Shown: piece after piece, positions 5,098 through 23,370 of the stretch
Layout of the letters: every line of letters begins with the position of its first letter
Position numbering within the stretch: position 1 is the stretch's first letter
Source: a virus
Reading direction: 5' to 3' (one strand)
DNA length: 23,552 nucleotides
IMG/VR virus record: IMGVR_UViG_3300032006_001365
Coordinates: 1 to 23,552 of that record
Translations under genes and position numbers: made by a program
Notes under the pieces: model-generated
Seen by the model: the letters and a program-made list of their open reading frames with translations, nothing else
Database searches by the model: none
Told to the model about the DNA's origin: nothing

Positions 5098-5342
5098 CGA
5101 ACCTCGAAGTTTAGTTTGCGTACTTTTCGTTTGCGTCGTTGCTCCTGCCATGCAAGATCTTGTGAAGTGAATCCGTCAGGTTTATGTTCTTCGTTAGAAC
5201 TTATCATGACTACCTTATTTAAGTCAAGTGCGGTCAATTTATCCCCATTTAAAGTGGCCATGTTAGGACAACCACATGATACAGTCTTTCCTGAGTTTGA
5301 ACTAAGTTCCTTACCACACTCTTTACATCTTACCTTGATCAT
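5094..5342 (-). CDS. Small zinc-ribbon-like protein, 82 aa
   Basis: An 82-residue protein with four cysteines arranged as C6-xx-C9 and C23-x-C25 (KCKECGKEL-type start and VSCGCPN), which can form a small zinc site. The middle part (LNGDKLTALDLNKVVMISS) is unassigned, and the tail is strongly basic (QEQRRKRKVRKLNFEVR), as expected of a nucleic-acid or nucleoprotein binder. It overlaps the end of the cytidylyltransferase gene by 20 bases. Such short zinc-ribbon proteins occur widely in cyanophages; a regulatory or DNA-binding role is inference. Confidence 0.75.
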   Translation of the reverse strand: MIKVRCKECGKELSSNSGKTVSCGCPNMATLNGDKLTALDLNKVVMISSNEEHKPDGFTSQDLAWQEQRRKRKVRKLNFEVR

Positions 5343-5835
5343 TTTCTTTAAGCGAATACTTTTCTAAAAGTTTGGGTGAATATTGTTCTACATTACTCTC
5401 TACCTTCTCATCTCTCTTTTTCTTTTCTAATGTATACACTCTGTTCCTTAATTCTGTGGAGGAATACTGGTGTCTTCGGAGATGAAAAAATAATTCTATA
5501 CCATTATCTATACAATATTGCTTTCCTGTGAAGTCTCTGTCTTTATATTCTTCACTCAAAAATCTTACATCAATGTTCTGGGTCTGAAGTAAATTAAGGA
5601 GATCAGCCTCTGTCTCATAGACTAGAATCTCATCAACATACTTACATCCTTGGAGTTGTACATACCTTTCATAGACTGATTGAACTGGTTTATTCTTCAC
5701 ACCAGGTCTATCAATAGTAGGATCCACCTGAAGTGCAACTATAAGATAGTCACACAACTGCTTCTCCATCTTCATCATTGTAACGTGTCCTGCATGAAAT
5801 AGATCACAAGAACTACAATTAAATCCTATCTTCAT
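5323..5835 (-). CDS. Cytidylyltransferase-like nucleotidyltransferase (HxGH family)
   Basis: A 170-residue protein of the HxGH nucleotidyltransferase superfamily, closest in layout to glycerol-3-phosphate cytidylyltransferase (TagD type), which transfers a nucleotide from CTP to a phosphorylated alcohol. It shows CDLFHAGHVTMMK with the HxGH motif at 14-17, YERYVQLQGCKYVDEI (55-70) of the family, and the second signature SSTELRNR at 125-132 (ISSTxLR type), which binds the triphosphate. About 35 residues of charged tail (TLEKKKRDEKVESN...) follow the domain. The substrate is unknown; glycerol-3-phosphate, ethanolamine phosphate or a sugar phosphate are possible. It starts 17 bases inside the 64-aa gene. 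A link to the sugar-nucleotide cluster downstream is inference. Confidence 0.82.
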   Translation of the reverse strand: MKIGFNCSSCDLFHAGHVTMMKMEKQLCDYLIVALQVDPTIDRPGVKNKPVQSVYERYVQLQGCKYVDEILVYETEADLLNLLQTQNIDVRFLSEEYKDRDFTGKQYCIDNGIELFFHLRRHQYSSTELRNRVYTLEKKKRDEKVESNVEQYSPKLLEKYSLKENDQGKM

Positions 5836-6456: not shown

Positions 6457-8832
6457 TTAGATCCCCCAAATATTTTTACAATATTCCCTAATAGAACGAT
6501 CTGATGAGAAGAAACCTGAACGGGCAGTATTAATTAAAGACATTCTATTCCATCTATCACGATCTGTCCATGCACTACTGACTCTATCTTGAGCATCACA
6601 GTAATCAGAGAAGTCAGCCATCACACAGAAAGGATCATGGTTAAGTAAGTTATCAAGTAAGGGTCTGAATAATTCTTTATCACCCTGACTAAAGTGACCT
6701 CCCTTAATAAGATTAATAGTTTCCCAAAGTTCAGGACTCATATGACTCTGAGGATTGTATCCATTCTGCCATAGATCTGCTATACCTTTCTCATCATGAC
6801 CAAAGAGGAAGAAGTTTTCTTCACCAACTAACTCACGTATCTCTACATTAGCACCATCTAATGTACCAATGGTAAGAGCACCATTCATTTGGAACTTCAT
6901 ATTACCAGTACCAGATGCTTCTTTACCAGCAGTGGAGATCTGCTCAGATAAATCAGCAGCAGGGTATACAAGTTCCCCTAACTTAACACTATAGTTTGGT
7001 AAGAATATTACACGCAACTTACCATCCATATCAGGATCATTATTAACCACCTCTGCAATATGACAGATGAATTGGATGATTAACTTTGCCATATAGTAAC
7101 CTGGTGCTGCTTTACCACCAAAGATTACTGTGCGAGGAACAAAATCTCTACCATTTTTAATGCGAAGGTATTGAGATACTACCCAAAGAGTCATCAAATG
7201 CTGTCTCTTATACTCATGAATCCTTTTAACTTGTATATCAAACATGCTTGAAGGATCCACAGATATTCCTAAATGATTAAAAATATATGTGGCAAGGTTA
7301 TGTTTACCTACTACCTTTGCTTCACCAAACTTCTCTAATAATTCTGGATTATCTTCTAACTTTTTTAAAGACTCCATATTAGTCATCCAATCTTCACCAA
7401 CATACTCATCTAATACTTCTGTCAGTGCAGGATTGCATGAGGCAACCCATCTTCTTGGAGTAACACCATTCGTGACATTAGTAAACTTATGAGGCCATAG
7501 ATCATAGAACTCTGGCATCAATTGAGTCTTAACTAATTCAGAGTGGAGTGCTGCAACACCATTAACATGATGAGATCCTACCGTGGCAAGATGTGCCATA
7601 CGTACTGATTTATTACCACGTTCATCAATAATAGACATCTTCTCTAACATGGATTCATCACCAGGATAATGAAGTCTTACTACCTGTAAGAATCTTCTAT
7701 TGATCTCATAGATGATCTCCATGTGTCTTGGAAGAAGAGTCTTAAACAATTTAAGATCCCATTTCTCTAAGGCCTCTGGAAGAAGAGTATGATTAGTATA
7801 TGCAACAGACTTAGTTACAATCTCCCATGCCTGTTCCCACTCCATATGCCTTTCATCAACAAGAAGTCTCATCAACTCTGCTACCGCAATAGCAGGGTGT
7901 GTATCATTTAACTGAACTTGCCAATACTCAGGGAATTGTTCTATAGGAATCTCTCTTCTATCAAGACTATTAAGCATATCCTGAAGAGATGCACTCACAA
8001 AGAAATGTTGTTGCTTTAATCGAAGTATCTTACCCTGATCTGTACCATCATTAGGATAAAGAACCTTAGAGATAGTTTCAGAAGACACACTCTGTTCTAC
8101 TGAACCAAGATAATCTCCTATATTAAATGCATAGAAATCAAATGTTTCAGTAGCATCTGCTCTCCATAACCTCAATCTATTACAAGAGTTTACTTTATAT
8201 CCTAACTGCAAAACATCATAAGGAACTGCTATAACCTGCTCATCAGGAACCCAACGTACCCTATAATTTCCTCTATCTGATACATAATTTTCTACTCTCC
8301 CACCAAATCCTACTAATACCGACTCATCTGGTTGACATAATTCCCAAGGCCATTCTCCATGTAACCAGTTATCAGTAACTTCTATCTGCTGATTATCCCT
8401 TATTTGCTGCTTGAAGATACCATACTTATATCTAATACCATAACCAGTAGCAGGGACTTCTAACGTTGCTAGAGAATCCATATAACATGCTGCTAGTCTC
8501 CCTAATCCACCATTACCCAAACCAGGTTCTTCTGCTACATCAAGAATCTCATCTATGGTATAGTCATATTCAGATAATGCCTGAATTGCTTCCTCTCTTA
8601 TACCTAAACTGATAAGATTATTATTTAATTGCGGTCCAATTAAAAACTCTGCTGATAGATATGCAACCTCTTTCTGTGGAGATTTTTGAGTATCCAACCA
8701 ATAGGTCATCATCTGATCTCTCACAGCATAGCATAATGCCATATAGAAATCATGTTTGGTAGCAATCTCAGGTCGTTTACCTAATGTATAGTAAAGACGT
8801 TCCTTAATACCATTATAAAGATTGTTTTTCAT
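6457..8832 (-). CDS. glgP: Glycogen (alpha-glucan) phosphorylase
   Basis: A 791-residue, full-length GT35 phosphorylase (E. coli GlgP and MalP have about 800-815). It cleaves alpha-1,4 glucan with phosphate to give glucose-1-phosphate. All main segments are intact: GLGNGGLGRLAACYMDSLA and TGYGIRYKYGIFKQ in the first third, FTNVTNGVTPRRWV in the middle, SSMFDIQVKRIHEYKRQH, IFGGKAAPGYYMAKLI, LPNYSVKLGELVYPAADLSE and EASGTGNMKFQMNGAL, whose Lys646 is the expected pyridoxal-phosphate lysine. The regulatory phospho-serine segment of animal enzymes is absent, as in bacteria. A strong Shine-Dalgarno sequence (GGAGGATA) precedes the ATG, which shares a base with the stop of the 38-aa gene (TAATG). 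Placed directly behind nrdAB. It is not among the cyanophage metabolic genes commonly reported (my recollection). Confidence 0.96.
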   Translation of the reverse strand: MKNNLYNGIKERLYYTLGKRPEIATKHDFYMALCYAVRDQMMTYWLDTQKSPQKEVAYLSAEFLIGPQLNNNLISLGIREEAIQALSEYDYTIDEILDVAEEPGLGNGGLGRLAACYMDSLATLEVPATGYGIRYKYGIFKQQIRDNQQIEVTDNWLHGEWPWELCQPDESVLVGFGGRVENYVSDRGNYRVRWVPDEQVIAVPYDVLQLGYKVNSCNRLRLWRADATETFDFYAFNIGDYLGSVEQSVSSETISKVLYPNDGTDQGKILRLKQQHFFVSASLQDMLNSLDRREIPIEQFPEYWQVQLNDTHPAIAVAELMRLLVDERHMEWEQAWEIVTKSVAYTNHTLLPEALEKWDLKLFKTLLPRHMEIIYEINRRFLQVVRLHYPGDESMLEKMSIIDERGNKSVRMAHLATVGSHHVNGVAALHSELVKTQLMPEFYDLWPHKFTNVTNGVTPRRWVASCNPALTEVLDEYVGEDWMTNMESLKKLEDNPELLEKFGEAKVVGKHNLATYIFNHLGISVDPSSMFDIQVKRIHEYKRQHLMTLWVVSQYLRIKNGRDFVPRTVIFGGKAAPGYYMAKLIIQFICHIAEVVNNDPDMDGKLRVIFLPNYSVKLGELVYPAADLSEQISTAGKEASGTGNMKFQMNGALTIGTLDGANVEIRELVGEENFFLFGHDEKGIADLWQNGYNPQSHMSPELWETINLIKGGHFSQGDKELFRPLLDNLLNHDPFCVMADFSDYCDAQDRVSSAWTDRDRWNRMSLINTARSGFFSSDRSIREYCKNIWGI

Positions 8833-14321: not shown

Positions 14322-15623
14322 TTAGAAGGTTGTATCAGCAAAACCAACTAAGAGTGCAGTAGTTCCAAGTCCAACGATACCTGAACCATCTACAGATCCT
14401 GTAGATTCATTGGGTTCAAAGGATCCACTCATGTATGTACCAGCACCACCAACCTGTCTATCAATACCTAGCGGTAAAGCAGCACCAGCAGCAGTACCAA
14501 CACCAGGATTTATAAATGTCTTAATAGCAGCAGTTCCATCATAGAATGAAGTAACTGTTCCCACTATACCATAATCCATATTGACTTTAAGTTTGGTAGC
14601 CGCAGTTAAATTACTGAACGTAATTGTAGCACCCACACCTACTGGAATTTGATCACGGATAGTAGAGAATCCAGCAGTTGTAACACCTGGTCTACCAACA
14701 GTGAAGGAAGTACTTCCTACAGAAGCAATTGGTGCGTTGGTCTTACCTATTCCCTGATTAGTGTTAATAGTAACAGAACTTACACCTGCAACGACTCCTG
14801 TTAGATCAGATTCGGCAACAAAGAAGGTTGTAGTACCTACACCAACACCACCATCGGCAACCTTAGTTGCTGATGTAAATGCTGCACTAACTTGTGCAAA
14901 TACATTATTCGCAGTTTTTAACGCAGTAGCTGCAGGAGCAGTAAACGCAAATGCTACTCTGTTAGTAATTTGTCCAGCAAAGTCAGCACCAGCAAGTCCA
15001 GTCAAACTATAAACTTCTTGTATACCTCCTGCACTACCACTAGCATATCCACCAGGACCACCAGTAGATGCAATACCAACATTAGTATAAGCGTTTATAT
15101 CACCAACGGCAGAAACAGCATATCCAGTAAGAACACTACCCTCATCTCCATTATTAATATTAAATGGAGTGACACCAATTGTTGTTCCAGTAGAAACGAA
15201 AACATTTTCGTTGTAAACTAGATGGACATATGCAGTAGCGGCAGGTGCAACTTTAGTTGTACCACCAGCAGAAACAGTAATATTACTTGCTTGATTAGGA
15301 TCTTCAAAGAATACTGCGACTGGAGTTGCAGGAGCAATACCTGTATGGTGTGTTGCATTTGCTGCTGCAACAGTAGTACCATCAAAATTAATTGATAGAT
15401 TAGGAACAGTGTTAAGACCAGCAATTGGAACTAACACTTCATCGGTATAGATCGTACCTAAACCTGAATGTTCAGTTGTTGCATAACGTCTGTATATCCA
15501 TCCACGATCATCAGCAAAACAGTTCCAAGGAGTGTTATTCCTATCTGTATCATTTAAGAACTTAGGTATGGCATAATTATTAGCCCAGTTCTCCGAGTTC
15601 GTTGAAATACCCCAAAGTGCCAT
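14322..15623 (-). CDS. Virion structural protein, Ala/Gly/Thr/Val-rich, 433 aa
   Basis: A 433-residue protein with a conserved-type start (MALWGISTNSENWANNYAIP, then NCFADDRGWIYRRYATTEH) and a long body with almost no charged residues. The body is made of loosely repeated beta-type phrases, such as GVGTTTFFV, SVGSTSFTVGRPG, TGTTIGVTPF and VGVGATITF, as in beta-sandwich fibre or decoration proteins. It has no cysteine beyond one near the start. Its own late promoter and a strong Shine-Dalgarno sequence (AGAAGGA) indicate high late expression. A structural role is likely; whether it is head decoration, tail or fibre cannot be told. From memory, proteins with this start are common in cyanomyoviruses. 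Confidence 0.8.
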   Translation of the reverse strand: MALWGISTNSENWANNYAIPKFLNDTDRNNTPWNCFADDRGWIYRRYATTEHSGLGTIYTDEVLVPIAGLNTVPNLSINFDGTTVAAANATHHTGIAPATPVAVFFEDPNQASNITVSAGGTTKVAPAATAYVHLVYNENVFVSTGTTIGVTPFNINNGDEGSVLTGYAVSAVGDINAYTNVGIASTGGPGGYASGSAGGIQEVYSLTGLAGADFAGQITNRVAFAFTAPAATALKTANNVFAQVSAAFTSATKVADGGVGVGTTTFFVAESDLTGVVAGVSSVTINTNQGIGKTNAPIASVGSTSFTVGRPGVTTAGFSTIRDQIPVGVGATITFSNLTAATKLKVNMDYGIVGTVTSFYDGTAAIKTFINPGVGTAAGAALPLGIDRQVGGAGTYMSGSFEPNESTGSVDGSGIVGLGTTALLVGFADTTF

Positions 15624-15927: not shown

Positions 15928-16449
15928 CTAAACTTTACTCATAAAATTTTGAAAGGAAATTCCCTCTTTAAAAGCAGGTTTATTATGCTTCTTTTTACTA
16001 CCAATCTTCTTCTTTAAAGTGGCATAAGCATCACCAAAAAGATTGTTATCCTGCATAGTCGTGTCTTCTTTTTGATATTTTTTATATTTCTTATCAGTAC
16101 CAGGTTTGTAATGTGGTTTATCCCCTTTCTTTTTCATAGACCACATTAACTTAAACATATCAGCAGTCTTTTCCTTCTTGGTTTTACTACCAGGAAGTCC
16201 TTTGAATCTACCATCATCTAATGCTCTCTTAAAGGCAGCAGCAGTTCCCCCAATCTTTGACTTAGGTTTCCAAGGTTTTGTCTTTTCTTTCTCTGCCTTC
16301 GTATGACCCCAACCAGGAGGTGAGACTTCCTGAATATCCTGAGCGAAATCCTTTGCTGCTTTTTTACTAATACCCTTTTTCTTTCTCTCCTCTGGATTAG
16401 ACAAGAGATATCCAAAATATCTTTGTTGCTTCTTAGAGACGGCTGGCAT
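15928..16449 (-). CDS. Very basic DUF3008-like protein, 173 aa
   Basis: The start was set at the ATG at 16449 (MPAVSKKQQRYFGYLLSNPE), because a perfect AGGAGG lies 8 bases upstream; a longer frame starts at 16473. The first ~40 residues (KKQQRYFGYLLSNPEERKKK then GISKKAAKDFAQ) resemble the DUF3008 family, small basic bacterial and phage proteins of unknown function. The remainder is Lys-rich with PGWGHTKAEKEKTKPWKPK and a distinct end part (QDNNLFGDAYATLKKKIG). The strong positive charge and late block position suggest a head or DNA-associated protein. It overlaps the 96-aa gene by 17 bases. Confidence 0.78.
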   Translation of the reverse strand: MPAVSKKQQRYFGYLLSNPEERKKKGISKKAAKDFAQDIQEVSPPGWGHTKAEKEKTKPWKPKSKIGGTAAAFKRALDDGRFKGLPGSKTKKEKTADMFKLMWSMKKKGDKPHYKPGTDKKYKKYQKEDTTMQDNNLFGDAYATLKKKIGSKKKHNKPAFKEGISFQNFMSKV

Positions 16450-16723
16450 TTTCAGATCCTCCTTGGAAGTCATGAATACTTTCAGATCCCCCTACAGCAA
16501 AAGGATTATACTTTGCTGTAGCAATTTCATACATTTTTTCATGTATATTATCCTCAACTACCTCTTCAATTACTTCTTCTTTAGAGTATTGGGGATTGTA
16601 TGCATCATCTGCATCGGATGATCCATACATATCAAATCTATCATTAGTAGCTATGGGCATATCATCATGGGGATGAGGGATATCATCAAACCATTCATCA
16701 AGTGGGAGTCTATGTAAAAGCAT
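16433..16723 (-). CDS. Acidic protein of unknown function, 96 aa
   Basis: A 96-residue acidic protein, opposite in charge to its neighbours. It contains LPLDEWFDDIPHPHDDMPIA at the start, an acidic stretch SKEEVIEEVVEDNIHEKMYE, and a C-terminal AKYNPFAVGGSESIHDFQGG. No membrane segment, cysteine or known motif is present. It is coupled to the upstream basic 173-aa gene (TAATG) with a Shine-Dalgarno-like AAGGA, and overlaps the DUF3008-like gene. Pairing of an acidic protein with basic partners suggests a complex, which is inference. Confidence 0.72.
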   Translation of the reverse strand: MLLHRLPLDEWFDDIPHPHDDMPIATNDRFDMYGSSDADDAYNPQYSKEEVIEEVVEDNIHEKMYEIATAKYNPFAVGGSESIHDFQGGSENASRL

Positions 16724-17244
16724 TATCCTTTGGGATAGCGACCCTGTGATGGGTCTTTAGCACGTTCTGCAGCATTTTCTTGGTCAACTTTTGCTTGATG
16801 AGCACGGACCTTTGCTTTTTCTGCAGGACTTTGTGGTTTAATTTTATCACGTTTTGTCAAGACCCCATCACCATGTTGCTTTTTAAGTTTAGCAACAACG
16901 TAATCAAAGGCTTTGTCTTCCCTTACACCTCTCTTTGCTTGATGCTCTGCAGTTCTTGCTTTCATTGCATCTAAACCAGGAGCACCTTTCATACCTTTCT
17001 TATCCATCCACTTCTTAGTTCTCTTCTGGATCTTTTCCCCTTGTCCTGAATGCACATCACTTTCTCTAATATCATCAGGTACTAAGTCTTCACTACCAGA
17101 AACATACTTTGCATGTGCCTTTCTTGCTAATTTTCTCTTTGCTCTTGCACCAGCATCCATTGCCTTCTCAGCTTTCTTCTCTGGTTTCTTTTTACCGATA
17201 AAAGTGAAAGACCTTTCATTTAAAAATTGATTAAGATTTTTCAT
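16723..17244 (-). CDS. Basic head-type protein with T4-like capsid-targeting N-terminus, 173 aa
   Basis: A 173-residue, very basic protein. It begins MKNLNQFLNERSFTFIGKKK: residues 1-10 resemble the capsid-targeting sequence of T4 internal proteins (MKTYQEFIAE), and NFLNE|R-type Leu-x-Glu fits the T4 prohead protease cleavage rule (Leu/Ile-x-Glu). The body is rich in Lys, Ala and Arg (AGARAKRKLARKAHAKYVSG, KRTKKWMDKKGMKGAPG, AKVRAHQAKVDQENAAERAK), as in DNA-binding core or internal proteins. Its ATG shares a base with the stop of the 412-aa gene (TAATG). Encapsidation and cleavage are predictions from the N-terminus, not shown. Confidence 0.75.
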   Translation of the reverse strand: MKNLNQFLNERSFTFIGKKKPEKKAEKAMDAGARAKRKLARKAHAKYVSGSEDLVPDDIRESDVHSGQGEKIQKRTKKWMDKKGMKGAPGLDAMKARTAEHQAKRGVREDKAFDYVVAKLKKQHGDGVLTKRDKIKPQSPAEKAKVRAHQAKVDQENAAERAKDPSQGRYPKG

Positions 17245-18482
17245 TAATCTGCTATCAGAGTGTAAAAGAGTTCTTCAACATCTTCCTTCTTCATTGAAGC
17301 AAAGGTCTGAGCAAGATTTGCTTGCTTCTTAGTCCTTGTACTGTACTTATTAGGATTATCATCAACAGTTTTTGCAAATTGTTGAACACTCTGACCTGCT
17401 GCCTTGGCTTTTCTAGTAAATGCACCTGGTCTCTTCACTGCTTTCTGAATCCAATCCTTTTCTTCAACTGCTGCTACTTGTGAAGCAGGAGCTTTCTTTA
17501 CTCCAAACTTATTACCTTTGTAATTAGGAGTGTCAGTCTTGTCTGCATTTACTACTGGAGTATCCTTCATGGTATAATTTGCTTTTTCAAGTTCCTTAAC
17601 TTCTTTACCGACTATACCCTTAGCTTTTGTACCAAGTACCCCTTCTACTGCATAAGAATCCTTTATGTAAGCATGTGTTTCACTCTTCTTACCTTCTTTC
17701 TCCCTAGTAGATCCCTTAGCATGTTTCCAACGATGACCTGATTTCTGTGCATCTTCTGCTCCCTTGTCACGTTGCCACTTAGCATAGTCACGTTCTTTCT
17801 TAGCTTGCTTCTTCTTACCATGCATACTGTCATAAGTAGCATCTCTAGTACCTTTTCTTGCCTTATCAAAAGCAATAACTGCCTTTACCTGATCAGGAGT
17901 GTCTTTTTGCTTCTCTTGAAGATCTACTTCTCTCTCAGAAATTACTCGACCACCAATTGATGCAACTGCTTCAGTCATCTTAGGATTAATAACAACCTTA
18001 TTTTTAACCTTTTTCTCCTTAACTACTTTCGCTGCTTCCACATCAGTCATTGGAACATCATCAGCAATTTCAATGAGATCATGTCTCCAATTAGAGAAGG
18101 ATTCTTTTTTCACGTTCTTTTTTGCAATAAGTTTTTCTCTTTCTCTACCAAGTCTACTCATATTAAATCTTGCATGACCAGATGCCTCACCCTCGTCTCT
18201 GGCAAAATCCATTGCCTTGCGGGTTGTTTTCTTCATAAGTTTATTCTTTCTATCCAATCTATCATCAATACTTCTTTCTGCTTCATCGAGTTCTACTTCT
18301 TCCTTAGATAACGGAGCTCCCAAAGTTGCTAATTCCTTAGTTGATGTCTCCATCTGCTTGTCAAGAGCACTGTTACCCTGCTCCCATCTCTTTATATCCT
18401 TCTCTTCTTCTTTCTGATTAGCATTAGCAACATGATCCAAATATATTCTAGATATATCATTCAATGGATTTAAAGATGACAT
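17244..18482 (-). CDS. Lys-rich virion-type protein, 412 aa
   Basis: A 412-residue protein, highly charged and Lys-rich throughout, with few hydrophobic stretches. It starts MSSLNPLNDISRIYLDHVAN, a form I recall from other cyanophage virion-type proteins, followed by a helical acidic/basic region (ERSIDDRLDRKNKLMKKTTR), then DAEAA-type helices, a basic part (HGKKKQAKKERDYAKWQRDK), and WIQKAVKRPGAFTRKAKAAG near the end. No catalytic motif is seen. It is probably disordered or an elongated scaffold/core protein. A late promoter lies 31 bases before its ATG. It has candidate Leu/Ile-x-Glu sites, but these are too common to mean much. Confidence 0.75.
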   Translation of the reverse strand: MSSLNPLNDISRIYLDHVANANQKEEEKDIKRWEQGNSALDKQMETSTKELATLGAPLSKEEVELDEAERSIDDRLDRKNKLMKKTTRKAMDFARDEGEASGHARFNMSRLGREREKLIAKKNVKKESFSNWRHDLIEIADDVPMTDVEAAKVVKEKKVKNKVVINPKMTEAVASIGGRVISEREVDLQEKQKDTPDQVKAVIAFDKARKGTRDATYDSMHGKKKQAKKERDYAKWQRDKGAEDAQKSGHRWKHAKGSTREKEGKKSETHAYIKDSYAVEGVLGTKAKGIVGKEVKELEKANYTMKDTPVVNADKTDTPNYKGNKFGVKKAPASQVAAVEEKDWIQKAVKRPGAFTRKAKAAGQSVQQFAKTVDDNPNKYSTRTKKQANLAQTFASMKKEDVEELFYTLIAD

Positions 18483-18490
18483 GGTAAGCC

Positions 18491-19744
18491 CTAACTCTTC
18501 TTTTTCTTATATTTATTTATAAACTGTCTTCCGTAAGACTGACCAGGAACCATCGATTTAGCAAAATTAAGATACGCATTTGTACCTACTAAGCGTTGAT
18601 CTGAGTTATTTTGACCTGGTTTTACTGCTTCCATCACATCTTTTACCCATGATTTGAACATATAGTCCTCTTTTGTCACACATATAAGGTGATTTGTACC
18701 TCTCCGAATGATTTCACCTATTAATCCTGTGTTTAAATTCTCTACAATGTCACCAATCTTATAAATTAATCCCTTTACATAGTTCTCTCTGAGTCCTTTT
18801 TGATCATCTCTTGGTGCAATTTCCCATAACTCATAAGACTCTTTTACTTTTTTCTTCTTACCTTTCATTCCAGTACGAACAGCATCAAAAACTGCTTGTG
18901 CATCCGCATCTTTCAATCCTTTAGGGGTTCCACGTCTAAATGAGTCAAAATCATCGTCTTGAACTGCTTTTCTCATCTTAGATGCAGACATTCCTTCCAC
19001 TCCTTCTGCATCAGAGTCCCTTACACCAGCTGAAATAACCCTAATTTGGTCAAAATCATAGAGTTCACCGTTGTATTTGACCGCTAAATTCTCAAATTCT
19101 GCTTGTCTGTCTGCTCCAACAATAATATTCACACTATCAAACCCATCTGCATCCGCAGTTTTAAGTACATCAAAGATAGATTTCATCTCTGCATCATTAA
19201 CAATCTCTTCCTCATAATCAGGGAACATCTTCTTCATATAAGAGATCTTCATATCAGGATCAAGAGGATTTTTCTTTGGATCATGCGATCTAGAAGGATA
19301 AATCTTCAATGGACCACCTGCGGCTGCCTTTCTTGCTGCTCCTAATAACTTTTCATGACCTACAGTTGGTGGATTAAACCTACCAAATGCAGTTGTAAGA
19401 GTCTTACCTTCCTTTTTATCCCCTTCTTCCTCTGGTTTTTTCTGTAAAGGTGCTCCTGCAAGGTCATCATCCTTCCGACGTTTCAACATTTGTTGAACTG
19501 GACCTTTAGGTTGCTTCTTCCCATTCACAGGAAGATGGGATGGACGACCTGGAGTTTGATCTGGATCTCTACCTGGTCTCTGATTCTTATTGAAAAATCT
19601 TAACTTATCTCCTTCTGTTTTTGCTACAAATTCTCCACTACGATCCAACCAACCACCATGGCCATCGCTCTTGAGTCCTAATTTCCGTGCCTGTGTTCCT
19701 GCCTTAGACTCAGTTTCAGTTAAAAATTGGAAAAAACTCTTCAT
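18491..19744 (-). CDS. Nucleotidyltransferase with T4-like capsid-targeting N-terminus, 417 aa
   Basis: A three-part protein. Residues 1-10 (MKSFFQFLTE) resemble the T4 capsid-targeting sequence, with a Leu-x-Glu cleavage site after Glu10. Residues 22-55 hold a short module (GLKSDGHGGWLDRSGEFVAK then TEGDKLRFFNK). Residues ~115-270 form an HxGH-superfamily nucleotidyltransferase: AFGRFNPPTVGHEKLL (TVGH, 127-130), SVNIIVGADRQAEFE (205-217), and MSASKMRKAV (252-261) at the ISSTxLR position, with AlaSer in place of SerThr. A Pro/Lys-rich linker separates the module from the domain. The C-terminal ~110 residues, with LIYKIGDIVENLNTGLIGEI (329-348) and NAYLNFAKSMVPGQ, are unassigned. The substrate is unknown. 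Inferred: packaged in the head and injected. Confidence 0.8.
   Translation of the reverse strand: MKSFFQFLTETESKAGTQARKLGLKSDGHGGWLDRSGEFVAKTEGDKLRFFNKNQRPGRDPDQTPGRPSHLPVNGKKQPKGPVQQMLKRRKDDDLAGAPLQKKPEEEGDKKEGKTLTTAFGRFNPPTVGHEKLLGAARKAAAGGPLKIYPSRSHDPKKNPLDPDMKISYMKKMFPDYEEEIVNDAEMKSIFDVLKTADADGFDSVNIIVGADRQAEFENLAVKYNGELYDFDQIRVISAGVRDSDAEGVEGMSASKMRKAVQDDDFDSFRRGTPKGLKDADAQAVFDAVRTGMKGKKKKVKESYELWEIAPRDDQKGLRENYVKGLIYKIGDIVENLNTGLIGEIIRRGTNHLICVTKEDYMFKSWVKDVMEAVKPGQNNSDQRLVGTNAYLNFAKSMVPGQSYGRQFINKYKKKKS
18514..18521 (-). promoter_or_regulatory. T4-type late promoter (TATAAATA)
   Basis: An exact TATAAATA on the minus strand, inside the last codons of the 417-aa gene and 31 bases before the ATG of the 412-aa virion-type gene. 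It fits late expression of the head-type genes 18482-15695. Confidence 0.78.
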
Positions 19745-19774: not shown

Positions 19775-21160
19775 TTAGAAAGATGTAATATCAGCAGCCT
19801 TCCAATGAGGAGAAGAACTCGCTGACCTAGAACCTGCATACAATATCATATTAGTAACCATTTCATTGGCCTTAGTTTTATTTTTTTCAAATATATCAAT
19901 CATAGATCCTCCCAAATATTTTCCAAAAATAAATTGTGCTCTTGCTCTTACTTTTAGATTACGTGAGTCTAATTTAGTAGAAAAATTAGGATGATCATAT
20001 AAAGCATTAAATAATTCTTCCTTTGATTCAAAAGATTGATTAGTATATCTATTTACAAATTGAAAAACTTTATTACAGATAGGATCCTTAATTGCCTCAT
20101 CCATATCATCATCCATTTCCTCAGAAATTCTTACTGCTTTATCAATAACTGCTTTTTGATTAGTAAGAGAAAAAATAGTCCCTGCTGATGAATTTACTTC
20201 ACCCAAAACATCTCCAATAGATTTTCCTGCTAAACCACCATCAAGAGCTTTTGTACCACCAGTAATTATACCTTGATAGGAATACGTTGGTGCTTTTCCT
20301 TTACTTTCTCCCGAAGAACCTTTATCTCTAAACTGCAACATAATATTTCCTTTATTTGTAAACTTTATATAAACATCTTTTGAACTAAACACATCCTTTG
20401 TTTTACTAAAAATATATCCATGATATCCAATCTGCTGACTCTTTAATGCCTTTGCCACATCCCCTTCAATAAAATTAATGGTTTTTATAATTGTAGTTTT
20501 CCTATCAGGAGATTTCTTAAGCGATAATGGAAGCAATTCTCCTTTATTAATCAAATCTTTTATAAAAGCATTTAACACTGAAAAATCTTGAAAATTTTCT
20601 ATGGATGTAAGTGTGGTTCCATTACTTCCTAATTTATATTTAAAATTCTTTCCTGCGGCTGCAGTCTTTAACAATCTTTGTGCATATACGGAAGCAAGAT
20701 AGATATCTGCAGGACTCCATTTATTAATATTATTAAATACTAAAGAATTTTTTCCTTCTAATAAATTTGCTTTCTTTGTAGCATTATTAGTATGCTTCCA
20801 AAGTTTATCAAGACTTCCAAAAACATTAACATCTCCTCTTACATAATATAAATCTATACCTTTAGGTTTTATTTTATTATAAGTTTTCTTTGATAGAGTT
20901 TTCGTAGCAGATAAAAGTTTATTGGCTATATTGATTGATGATTTATACCAATCATTATCTTTAATTAAAAAAGTCTCTATAGACTGAAGGGACACACCTG
21001 GAGTGACTACCTTTCTAGAGACTGCTCTTATTTCTCTTTTATATTGTTCTTGAAATTGAATATAATTATCTATAGTATAAGGTAAAGGAGCACCTCTATA
21101 ATCCACAATTGCACTAAAGAGGGCCTGTGCTGCTTCTGCTTGTTTGGGGGAATCGGCCAT
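19775..21160 (-). CDS. Unknown late protein, 461 aa
   Basis: A 461-residue protein with no domain that I recognise with confidence. It begins MADSPKQAEAAQALFSAIVD and contains a Lys/Asn-rich middle, INKWSPADIYLASVYAQRLL (about 145-165), HGYIFSKTKDVFSSKDVYIK, GNIMLQFRDKGSSGESKG and GKSIGDVLGEVNSSAG. The last third is helical with KVRARAQFIFGKYLGGSMID. There is no signal peptide or membrane segment. The phrase about a Trp-Ser-Pro-Ala-Asp-Ile-Tyr in a Lys-rich context reminds me of uncharacterised large-phage proteins, possibly nucleases, but I would not assign that. A late promoter directly upstream suggests a virion or head component. It is more Asn/Lys-rich than its neighbours. Confidence 0.78.
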   Translation of the reverse strand: MADSPKQAEAAQALFSAIVDYRGAPLPYTIDNYIQFQEQYKREIRAVSRKVVTPGVSLQSIETFLIKDNDWYKSSINIANKLLSATKTLSKKTYNKIKPKGIDLYYVRGDVNVFGSLDKLWKHTNNATKKANLLEGKNSLVFNNINKWSPADIYLASVYAQRLLKTAAAGKNFKYKLGSNGTTLTSIENFQDFSVLNAFIKDLINKGELLPLSLKKSPDRKTTIIKTINFIEGDVAKALKSQQIGYHGYIFSKTKDVFSSKDVYIKFTNKGNIMLQFRDKGSSGESKGKAPTYSYQGIITGGTKALDGGLAGKSIGDVLGEVNSSAGTIFSLTNQKAVIDKAVRISEEMDDDMDEAIKDPICNKVFQFVNRYTNQSFESKEELFNALYDHPNFSTKLDSRNLKVRARAQFIFGKYLGGSMIDIFEKNKTKANEMVTNMILYAGSRSASSSPHWKAADITSF

Positions 21161-21564: not shown

Positions 21565-21730
21565 TGTTAGAGTAAAATTCTGGTTTAAATTGACGAGTTT
21601 CTAATTCTCCAAGTTTATTATCTATTTCTCTAGTGAGTTCTACACACTCATTAGATGTTGCTCCCATAACTTCTTCGGTTACTCTACCATCTTGTCGGAT
21701 AGTAAACTTAAGTGTTTGTTGTCTAGGCAT
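21509..21730 (-). CDS. DUF2997 family protein
   Basis: A 73-residue protein; the first 55 residues match the DUF2997 family (MPRQQTLKFTIRQDGRVTEE, then VMGATSNECVELTREIDNKL and FKPEFYSN), which is linked to Ycf35 in cyanobacteria. The start was set at the ATG at 21730, 8 bases before the purH stop; a longer frame reaches back into purH but has no family match. The C-terminal 18 residues (QHNQDQTEEQTTTN) are coded in the region that overlaps the ycf35 start, and are probably unconstrained. Function unknown. Confidence 0.85.
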   Translation of the reverse strand: MPRQQTLKFTIRQDGRVTEEVMGATSNECVELTREIDNKLGELETRQFKPEFYSNNVALQHNQDQTEEQTTTN

Positions 21731-22349
21731 TAGTCTCCCTTTCAATGAGATTGAAGATCTCTGGAGGTGCGGTTGGTAAGTCCCGCATCCATTCGTAAAT
21801 TGCTGCATCATATTCAGCACTATGTTTGAATGCTTCCATTGCAAACTCAGTTTTTAGTTCTACTTCTCTATTATCATTCAATGCATCTAAAAACCTTTCA
21901 TACTGATTAGGATTAGTTAGTAGAGAAACATACTTGTAATTTTTTGCTGCTGACCTTATCATACTAGGACCACCAATATCAATATTTTCTATAGCTTCAT
22001 CAATAGTTACATCTGGTCTACGAACTGTTTCTTTGAATGGATATAAGTTTACTACCACAATATCAATTAATTTAATATCATTTGCATTACGATCTATATC
22101 ATGTTGAGGATTACCACGTTGAGCAAGAATGCCACCATGAATCTTTGGATGTAATGTCTTTACTCTTCCATTCAAAATCTCTGGTGAACCAGTATACTCG
22201 GATACTTTCATTACAGGAATACCTGCTGCCTGAAGAACAGCATGAGTTCCACCACTAGATATAATCTGATATCCAGCACGAACTAATCCTTCTGCCAAAT
22301 CTACAATACCTGTTTTATCCGAAACACTTAGTAATGCGTAATAACTCAT
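21723..22349 (-). CDS. purH: PurH, IMP cyclohydrolase domain only
   Basis: A 208-residue protein holding only the N-terminal IMP cyclohydrolase (MGS-like) domain of PurH, which closes the ring to give IMP. Signature segments are ALLSVSDKTGIVDLAEGL, ISSGGTHAVL, GRVKTLHPKIHGGILAQR, VVVNLYPFKETV and NIDIGGPSMIRSAAKNYKYV. Bacterial PurH has about 510-530 residues; the AICAR transformylase part is absent and the frame ends at a clean stop that overlaps DUF2997, with no trace of the missing domain downstream. The formylation step would then have to come from the host or another phage gene. The ATG overlaps the mazG stop (ATGA). Confidence 0.9.
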   Translation of the reverse strand: MSYYALLSVSDKTGIVDLAEGLVRAGYQIISSGGTHAVLQAAGIPVMKVSEYTGSPEILNGRVKTLHPKIHGGILAQRGNPQHDIDRNANDIKLIDIVVVNLYPFKETVRRPDVTIDEAIENIDIGGPSMIRSAAKNYKYVSLLTNPNQYERFLDALNDNREVELKTEFAMEAFKHSAEYDAAIYEWMRDLPTAPPEIFNLIERETNA

Positions 22350-22753
22350 AGGTCTCCCTCTGCACGGTTTTCTGATTGATGGACATCAAATTCTCCACCA
22401 GGATATCTTGCTTTAAGTTTATCTACATTCATCTCAATAATTTCATCGAATGTAGTATCTAGTGCCATACAAGCTTGTGCCAAATACCAGCATATATCTC
22501 CCAACTCTCTCTTCATATGGAAGATATTCTCTTCATTATAGGGTTTACCTTGGAGAATGATTTTCTTTACTACTTCAGTAAACTCACCTGACTCAGCAGT
22601 CAATCCAAGTGCAGCAGTTAACAATCTAGGAACATCTGCATCATTCTCAATATCCAGTTCAGTGATACGAGAAAGTAATGCTGCTAGATCTGTACTAGGA
22701 AGACTAGTAACTTCAGTAACAAAATCTAGATATTTATTGGTGTCAACAGTCAT
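22346..22753 (-). CDS. mazG: MazG-type nucleotide pyrophosphohydrolase
   Basis: A 135-residue MazG-like NTP pyrophosphohydrolase of the all-alpha NTP-PPase superfamily. The metal-binding motif is E54-xx-E57 (TAESGEFTE) and E83-xx-D86 (KRELGDICWY), spaced as ExxE-25-ExxD. The LNAALGLTAE-type start of the helix and PYNEENIFHMKRE fit phage MazG proteins. Cyanophage MazG was long thought to lower (p)ppGpp; other work supports hydrolysis of dGTP/dCTP, so the substrate is open. It is ATGA-coupled both to pebS upstream and to purH downstream. Confidence 0.93.
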   Translation of the reverse strand: MTVDTNKYLDFVTEVTSLPSTDLAALLSRITELDIENDADVPRLLTAALGLTAESGEFTEVVKKIILQGKPYNEENIFHMKRELGDICWYLAQACMALDTTFDEIIEMNVDKLKARYPGGEFDVHQSENRAEGDL

Positions 22754-23370
22754 TGATAAGAAAATAAAAAATCATTTACAAGACTATCTGCTTTTTCTTT
22801 ACCAAACTTACCAGTCAGAAATCCTCCCACTGGATCTAGTTTAGTCATATAAGCATCAAAATCTTTATATACACTGGTATCAGTTCCAGTTGGTTTTTCC
22901 AATTCTATCATATCAACATAACATTGTAAATACTTTTTAAACATATCAAGATGATCATCAACATCTTCAGGTGTACAATAGCGAATGTAAATATTTTCAG
23001 AGAAATGATTACCTGGTTCAAAGAACCGATACTCACCTTCATGTTTTGGTAACCCATCCACAGAGAACAAATAGTTTTCCGTGGGATGTTGGAAGTCAAA
23101 TACTATAATGATTTTCTTTTCAGAAAACTTCATTAAATCCATCCCAAAACAGGGAAGGTTACTTCCAGTCTTGGGATATGCTATACAGTTAAAGATATCA
23201 ACATTCTTCCCATCAGTTATATCCACCTGTCTTGATTTAAGAAAGTGTGGATGCGAATGAGTGATAGCATTCAAATAAGTTCCTTTACCTTCCCAACCTG
23301 CCCATAGACCTTCTATCTTCATAGGCAACATGGATCTATAAGTACTAATATAGTTTTGCCAAATAGTCAT
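22750..23370 (-). CDS. pebS: Phycoerythrobilin synthase PebS (ferredoxin-dependent bilin reductase)
   Basis: A 206-residue ferredoxin-dependent bilin reductase of the PebS type, which reduces biliverdin to phycoerythrobilin in two steps. Close resemblance to P-SSM2 PebS is seen in YPKTGSNLPCFGMDLMKFS, IIIVFDFQHPTENYLFSVDG, GEYRFFEPGNHFSENI and NDFLFSYQ. Asp78 (FGMDLM) and Asp179 (TKLDPVGG) match the PebS catalytic Asp105 and Asp206 (recalled numbers) with a constant offset of 27, so both are kept; the N-terminus is about 27 residues shorter than in P-SSM2. The ATG shares a base with the upstream stop (TAATG). PcyX is an alternative member of the family. Confidence 0.93.
   Translation of the reverse strand: MTIWQNYISTYRSMLPMKIEGLWAGWEGKGTYLNAITHSHPHFLKSRQVDITDGKNVDIFNCIAYPKTGSNLPCFGMDLMKFSEKKIIIVFDFQHPTENYLFSVDGLPKHEGEYRFFEPGNHFSENIYIRYCTPEDVDDHLDMFKKYLQCYVDMIELEKPTGTDTSVYKDFDAYMTKLDPVGGFLTGKFGKEKADSLVNDFLFSYQ

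Follow-up and report, generated by a model that had tools for sequence, protein, structure and literature searches.

A probable T4-type capsid-targeting sequence on two otherwise unrelated proteins of a cyanophage fragment

Results and discussion

This study deals with a ten-residue N-terminus shared by two proteins of the virus record IMGVR_UViG_3300032006_001365, of which positions 1 to 23,552 were analysed and are referred to as the window. By gene content the window comes from a T4-like cyanophage and is a fragment without the head gene cluster, and its gene order (cytidyltransferase, primase and nrdA/nrdB genes) matches that of Synechococcus phage S-SM2. The shared residues, referred to as the tag, open a nucleotidyltransferase (NTase) of 417 amino acids (aa) and a basic protein of 173 aa (Table 1), and they are very likely a capsid-targeting sequence (CTS) of the T4 type that is removed by the prohead protease, the cargo being freed in the head and probably delivered with the DNA. 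The tag would be a detachable peptide forming a short amphipathic helix with residues 4, 7 and 8 on one face, which would bind the prohead's scaffold core (gp22/T4_CASP type), thereby loading the attached protein into the head before the DNA enters. A gp21-type prohead protease would then cut after E10 (F-L-x-E followed by A, S or T), and the cargo released inside the head would probably leave it along with the DNA.

Metabolic enzymes recur in the virion proteomes of cyanophages, and the authors of these studies were unable to separate cargo from contamination. A T4-type address on exactly those enzymes would provide a mechanism, together with a rule by which cargo could be predicted from the genome sequence alone, would make the question of the head cargo of marine phages directly testable, and would give many unknown small genes a candidate role. 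The concept of capsid targeting is known from T4, and its use on cyanophage virion enzymes is absent from the literature searched; searches including the peptide letters found no description of the tag in cyanophages, with subscription journals largely uncovered, so that an earlier mention is possible.

The shared N-terminus and its T4 counterpart

In a BLASTP comparison, the 417-aa and the 173-aa protein align in residues 1-10 only, six of which are identical, and both starts end in Leu-x-Glu (LTE in the NTase, LNE in the 173-aa protein), just as a preliminary description made from the letters of the window had reported. Since a 412-aa gene sits between the tagged pair, the range given there spans three genes. 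Of the window's 35 likely genes, exactly these two have the strict motif, ^MK.[hydrophobic]..F[LIMVFT].E, and the pattern is absent from the rest of the 35 protein sequences. Shuffling of residues 2-25 of the 35 genes yielded a mean of 0.00065 hits, with at least one hit in 13 of 20,000 shuffles and two hits in none. A chance likeness of two N-termini, which a match of only ten residues with six identities might suggest, was rejected on these shuffles; independent genomes repeat the tag, and the probability of this explanation is negligible.

Table 1. Features of the window discussed in the text.
Feature	Position	Strand	Evidence or remark
Tagged NTase, 417 aa, starts MKSFFQFLTE then T	18491-19744	-	ORF
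Tagged basic protein, 173 aa, starts MKNLNQFLNE then R	16723-17244	-	ORF
NTase tag, residues 1-10 (MKSFFQFLTE), putative CTS	19715..19744	-	Predicted cleavage after E10
Tag of the 173-aa protein (MKNLNQFLNE), putative CTS	17215..17244	-	Predicted cleavage after E10
412-aa gene between the two tagged genes	17244-18482	-	Shares segments with S-SCSM1 gp280 (annotated virion protein)
Small folded cassette behind the NTase tag, residues 12-50, LGLxxxGHGxxxDxxGxxVAxTxxGxLxF	19595..19711	-	pLDDT ~78
Adenylyl/cytidylyltransferase domain of the NTase, residues 115-300, motifs GRFNPPTVGH and MSASKMR	18845..19402	-	phrog_395, Foldseek
Untagged 461-aa neighbour, homologue of S-SCSM1 gp282	19775..21160	-	E 1e-10
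C-terminal tag-like end ISFQNFMSKV of the 181-aa MPAVSK-type protein	15931..15960	-	Suggestive only

In the T4 record, IPII and IPIII start with MKTYQEFIAE followed by A, and IPI with MKTFKEFTST. According to the published T4 work, targeting depends on CTS residues 4 and 7 and processing on residues 8 and 10. Both window tags fit the strict motif in one register with T4 IPII and IPIII, including these key positions. The likeness to the T4 CTS (IPI, IPII, IPIII) thus comprises the N-terminal pattern M-K-x-aromatic-x-x-F-L/I-x-E in the same register on unrelated proteins, the gp21 motif L/I-x-E at its end, and the following residue, an A in both IPII and IPIII, and mostly A or S in the larger set described below. 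The cyanophage tag differs in that it is found on large enzymes and in many marine phage families, in some cases with a folded cassette directly behind it, and in that targeting and cleavage in cyanophages are predicted from sequence. The common capsid address on unrelated proteins, the core of the preliminary description, is supported by the excess over chance, by the presence of tagged proteins in virions and by the fit to L/I-x-E, but that description left the T4 precedent unnamed. The T4 record also contains a 54-aa open reading frame (ORF; NC_000866, 19101-19130, minus strand, L234; L numbers denote the collected loci) that starts with MKTFKEFIKE and is possibly a further small tagged protein.

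A related case is T4 Alt, an injected ADP-ribosyltransferase with terminal propeptides, which is likewise an enzyme that is packed into the head. The tag together with the same cassette as in the window NTase occurs on an Alt-like ADP-ribosyltransferase (L361); the window enzyme differs from Alt in being a nucleotidyltransferase. Fusions and gene context led the authors of a survey of NAD-ADPr systems to infer that phage ADP-ribosyltransferases are packaged in the head (PMC9503650). The N-terminal capsid signal of DarB of phage P1, of which 30 residues are reported to be enough to direct a reporter to the capsid, is a similar case by its published description.

Tagged proteins in published virion proteomes

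The published virion proteome of cyanophage S-CREM2 (OR473000) comprises 52 proteins (PMC10665884). When all 219 annotated protein genes of this phage were translated and scanned with the strict motif, four proteins were tagged, each of them listed among the virion proteins (hypergeometric p=0.0029; shuffled expectation 0.007). They are the SAM hydrolase gp6 (MKDFDSFLEE), the 78-aa gp13 (MKDLHSFLTE), the APH/ChoK-like kinase gp14 (MKRFDAFLTE) and the cytidylyltransferase gp154 (MKNFSSFLTE). The motif is always N-terminal and occurs nowhere else among 54,874 residues. The Cas9-like virion nuclease gp12 has an offset, shorter motif at residues 19-25 (RFASFMAE followed by AA); with gp6, gp14 and gp154, all four non-structural, non-endolysin enzymes in the authors' list are therefore tagged.

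In S-SCSM1 (NC_070962), the strict motif is found in two of 282 proteins (p=0.31), namely the annotated virion protein gp281, described as a nicotinamide nucleotide adenylyltransferase (NMNAT), and gp30. The former is the orthologue of the window NTase, with 66% identity in an alignment of 26 NTases, and the S-SCSM1 paper lists the NMNAT among 45 virion proteins (PMC9602691), as opposed to 47 genes marked as virion proteins in the record by our own count. In S-CRM01, a kinase adjoining a tagged 78-aa protein starts with MISFDQFLSE and a nearby NTase is also tagged; a kinase has been reported in the virions of this phage. The NTase of S-SZBM1, also reported in virions, starts with MRFRQFIIE followed by A, which is the tag shifted by one residue. 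The NMNAT-like cytidylyltransferases of the virions of S-SCSM1, S-CREM2, S-SZBM1 and S-CBWM1 are members of the family of the window enzyme, phrog_395, and no packaging signal is named in the passages on them in the corresponding papers, whose authors reckon with contamination.

The comparison with virion proteomics proposed in the preliminary description was thus borne out in S-CREM2 (four of four), for one of two proteins in S-SCSM1, and for the S-CRM01 kinase. Its further expectation, that the tag would list all injected proteins, fails, as many virion proteins are untagged and strict scans miss shifted or K-less forms. A tag on every cargo protein was rejected: gp89, gp282, gp280 and gp279 of S-SCSM1 are annotated as virion proteins and have no strict N-terminal tag. 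Another annotated virion protein of S-SCSM1 is gp70 (L007, 25146-25580), a RegA translational repressor.

Prohead protease, scaffold and capsid protein site

Two relatives encode both components of the proposed pathway, a Peptidase_S77 protein of the gp21 family (S-SCSM1 gp40, S-CREM2 gp143) and a T4_CASP scaffold protein (S-SCSM1 gp41, S-CREM2 gp144), and the window phage would be expected to behave like them. Near residue 56, their major capsid proteins contain FLAE followed by APTNAVG and LTE followed by APTQAVG (S-SCSM1, S-CREM2). The prohead protease specificity, a check named in the preliminary description, is in agreement with the tag, whose residues fit the L/I-x-E of the T4-type protease, and the capsid site and the tag ends suggest one protease specificity with predicted cleavage at both. 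Tagged proteins of 142-144 aa in S-SM2 (91376, L231), L062 and L085 continue with PTNxVGxxGY...GFD after their own FLxE, a stretch that resembles the major capsid protein just after the predicted cleavage site.

Occurrence in phage genomes and environmental contigs

The DNA pattern for M-K-x4-F-[NTN codon]-x-E was scanned in 14 whole phage records, with the reversed pattern as a control, and gave 32 matches as opposed to 2, so that the pattern exceeds chance in these records. Among the 32 matches, 24 are plausible ORF starts, 7 are chance-like and 1 locus (P-SSM2, 249208) is unread. In IMG/VR, two stricter patterns gave at least 250 matches, and 238 of the 250 listed open ORFs of at least 40 aa; shorter ORFs were left out. 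Clustering by BLAST on residue 12 onward assigned the matches listed to at least 233 distinct tagged proteins in at least 77 clusters.

Residue 11 lies outside the search patterns. Among the matches listed, 22 of the 77 clusters have Ala at this position and 12 have Ser (background 7.6% and 6.5%), i.e., A or S in 34 of 77 as opposed to a background of 14.1% (p=1.7e-10). At the predicted P1' position, this bias towards small residues is like that of a gp21 cleavage site. Of the clusters, 20 chosen ones were searched against Pfam and 10 against PHROGs. The families recognised were ADP-ribosyltransferases (one Alt-like, phrog_802), zeta-toxin-like P-loop kinases, a helicase domain, lysozyme, DUF6267 and a homologue of T4 IPIII, and several of the chosen clusters matched no family in these searches. 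A tagged GNAT acetyltransferase was found in S-CRM01. In S-TIM5, the only find was a 372-aa ORF with a tag-like start, and no homologue of the S-CREM2 kinase was found in it.

The nucleotidyltransferase and its cassette

Across the 26 aligned NTases, which range down to 40% identity, M1, K2, F7 and E10 are invariant and the next invariant residue is F120; the NTases of S-CREM2 and S-CRM01 keep the tag although most of the region between it and F120 is missing. In 89 distinct tag DNAs of NTases, the codons of F7, L8 and E10 vary synonymously, which indicates selection on the peptide. A constraint on DNA or translation, such as an A-rich start, ribosome binding or a recombination site, could also make starts alike, since MK with AAA or AAG is a common way for genes to start and one that favours initiation. 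However, the codons at these three positions vary freely, and the reversed pattern of the same composition gave 2 matches as opposed to 32; this explanation was rejected on both counts and is very improbable. All 80 recovered NTase loci are tagged, which is not independent evidence because they were found partly via the peptide MKSFFQFL. For divergent NTases, four of the search matches that aligned without their N-terminus were inspected: the NTase of S-B68 is tagged, the shifted tag of S-SZBM1 was described above, DLP_6 is doubtful, and Syn1 is discussed below.

The window NTase matches phrog_395 over residues 110-411 (E 5.3e-100), its match to Pfam CTP_transf_like lies below the cut-off of that family, and the catalytic motifs are invariant or nearly so in the 26 NTases. 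An AlphaFold2 model from 24 sequences (mean pLDDT 64.6) shows a short helix at residues 4-9 within residues 1-11 of pLDDT below 50, a small domain at 12-50 (about 78), a stretch at 56-112 mostly below 50, and the catalytic domain at 115-300. In Foldseek, the catalytic domain scores about equally against phosphopantetheine (PPAT), nicotinate (NadD) and nicotinamide nucleotide (NMNAT) adenylyltransferases, and the name NMNAT was therefore not adopted for the window enzyme. A second cytidylyltransferase-like protein of the window (5323-5835, minus strand, 170 aa, PF01467) is untagged and represents a natural counterpart to the tagged enzyme.

A profile of NTase residues 11-58, which cover the cassette behind the tag, was compared with 33,166 ORF segments of the collected loci. 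It matched the Cas9-like gp12 and the kinase gp14 (two copies) of S-CREM2, g128 of S-CRM01, the Alt-like ADP-ribosyltransferase mentioned above, and ORFs in L336 and L260. Independently, when the whole kinase was used as the query, its N-terminal 53 residues aligned with the NTase of S-CREM1 (E 6.6e-6) and its N-terminal 47 with that of P-SSM2 (E 7.3e-4). The tag plus cassette is therefore common to at least four unrelated enzymes. The ORF in L260 (minus strand) has two cassette copies, the second behind an internal tag-like LTFRQFISE.

The joint occurrence of tag and cassette on several enzymes means that copying of N-terminal pieces does happen, and it favours the view that the shared start was inherited, from a common ancestor or as a copied piece, and has no targeting role. 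On the other hand, the likeness of the window pair ends at residue 10, few NTase positions are conserved while about 100 residues behind the tag vary or are missing, and, among the matches listed, the tag stands on at least 77 clusters that share no detectable similarity beyond residue 11, with the A/S bias at that residue running across them. Common ancestry was rejected on these grounds, and inheritance without a targeting role is unlikely.

The 173-aa protein and its relatives

The C-terminal 67 residues of the 173-aa protein match the C-terminus of a longer gene in relatives. In L139 and L140, a single ORF of 396-397 aa starts like the 412-aa protein of the window and ends like the 173-aa protein; in the window, the start codon of the 173-aa gene and the stop codon of the 412-aa gene overlap in TAATG. 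This arrangement may represent a split or a fusion. A gene of its own encodes the second part in six cases (the window, L133, L134, L136, L137 and AG-345-E15), and all six start with MK[TN][YLF]xxF, the five outside the window with MKT[YLF]xxF.

Weighing of the capsid-targeting interpretation

Several observations count against a capsid-targeting role of the tag. Genes for gp21 and gp22 are absent from the window, which is a 23.5-kb fragment. K2 and F7 are retained in the five other free-standing homologues of the 173-aa protein, but the L-x-E ending at residues 8-10 occurs only in the window version; like T4 IPI, the others keep only the targeting residues. Where the break lies elsewhere, as in the three loci L176, L178 and L199, the second piece is untagged. 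Of the divergent NTases, that of Syn1 has no tag. S-SCSM1 gp30 (MKTFKQFMSE) is not marked as virion-detected, and that genome alone therefore shows no enrichment. Three of the 14 phage records (HTVC008M, P-SSP7 and S-CBWM1) have no match to the pattern; the virions of S-CBWM1 have been reported to contain kinases and an NMNAT, yet the ORFs at its kinase match are untagged. One tagged ORF (L037) is at odds with the idea of cargo, being an HK97-type capsid protein. The authors of the proteomes also allow for carry-over during CsCl purification.

Targeting signals are often short N-termini, and the tag could instead address a host membrane, a phage chaperone or a tail part, or set N-terminal stability, for which the short helix modelled at residues 4-9 and the three records without a match could be taken to speak. 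This is set against the exact register with the T4 capsid signal including its critical residues, the finding of tagged enzymes in virions, and the agreement of the site with both the protease motif and the capsid protein site, so that a target other than the capsid has a low probability and a T4-type CTS is preferred.

Gene neighbourhood

In S-SCSM1, gp89, gp282, gp281, gp280, gp279 and gp277 form a syntenic cluster upstream of the primase, and all are annotated as virion proteins. Counterparts in the window include, besides the NTase and the genes listed in Table 1, a 181-aa MPAVSK-type protein that has segments in common with gp279; the 433-aa gene (14322-15623) gave no significant match to gp277. 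By this homology, the window probably contains a head-cargo locus in which only part of the genes carry the tag.

The gene after the NTase was readable in 59 of the 80 loci. Tag-like C-termini such as TFKEFLENI are found in 9 of 28 distinct MPAVSK-type proteins of the collected loci. A C-terminal tag as a general rule was rejected, since a proteome-wide regular expression was unenriched (4 matches versus 2.6 after shuffling in S-CREM2, 4 versus 3.2 in S-SCSM1), and it therefore stays a suggestion. Downstream of the NTase in L205, an MPAVSK-type protein has MKTFKEFI... joined before AVSKAQQRFFGM, and the next ORF ends with LKEFLGNI.

More tentatively, and with slightly less than an even chance in our estimation, one address code may be common to T4-type phages in marine and other habitats. 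It would consist of an N-terminal helix on any protein to be shipped, sometimes with an adaptor cassette and sometimes at the C-terminus, and a free-standing piece of a gene would gain a tag of its own. Nucleotidyltransferases, kinases, Cas9-like nucleases, ADP-ribosyltransferases, acetyltransferases and SAM lyases would fall under it. If true, the shared code would be readable and would lead to a catalogue of hundreds of host-takeover proteins.

Three further genes of the window, all on the minus strand, were recognised. A 791-aa glycogen/carbohydrate phosphorylase (6457-8832; PF00343, 1040 bits) may be an auxiliary metabolic gene, the short PurH-like protein at 21723-22349 (208 aa) contains an MGS domain and the start of AICARFT, and a ferredoxin-dependent bilin reductase (PF05996) is encoded at 22750-23370.

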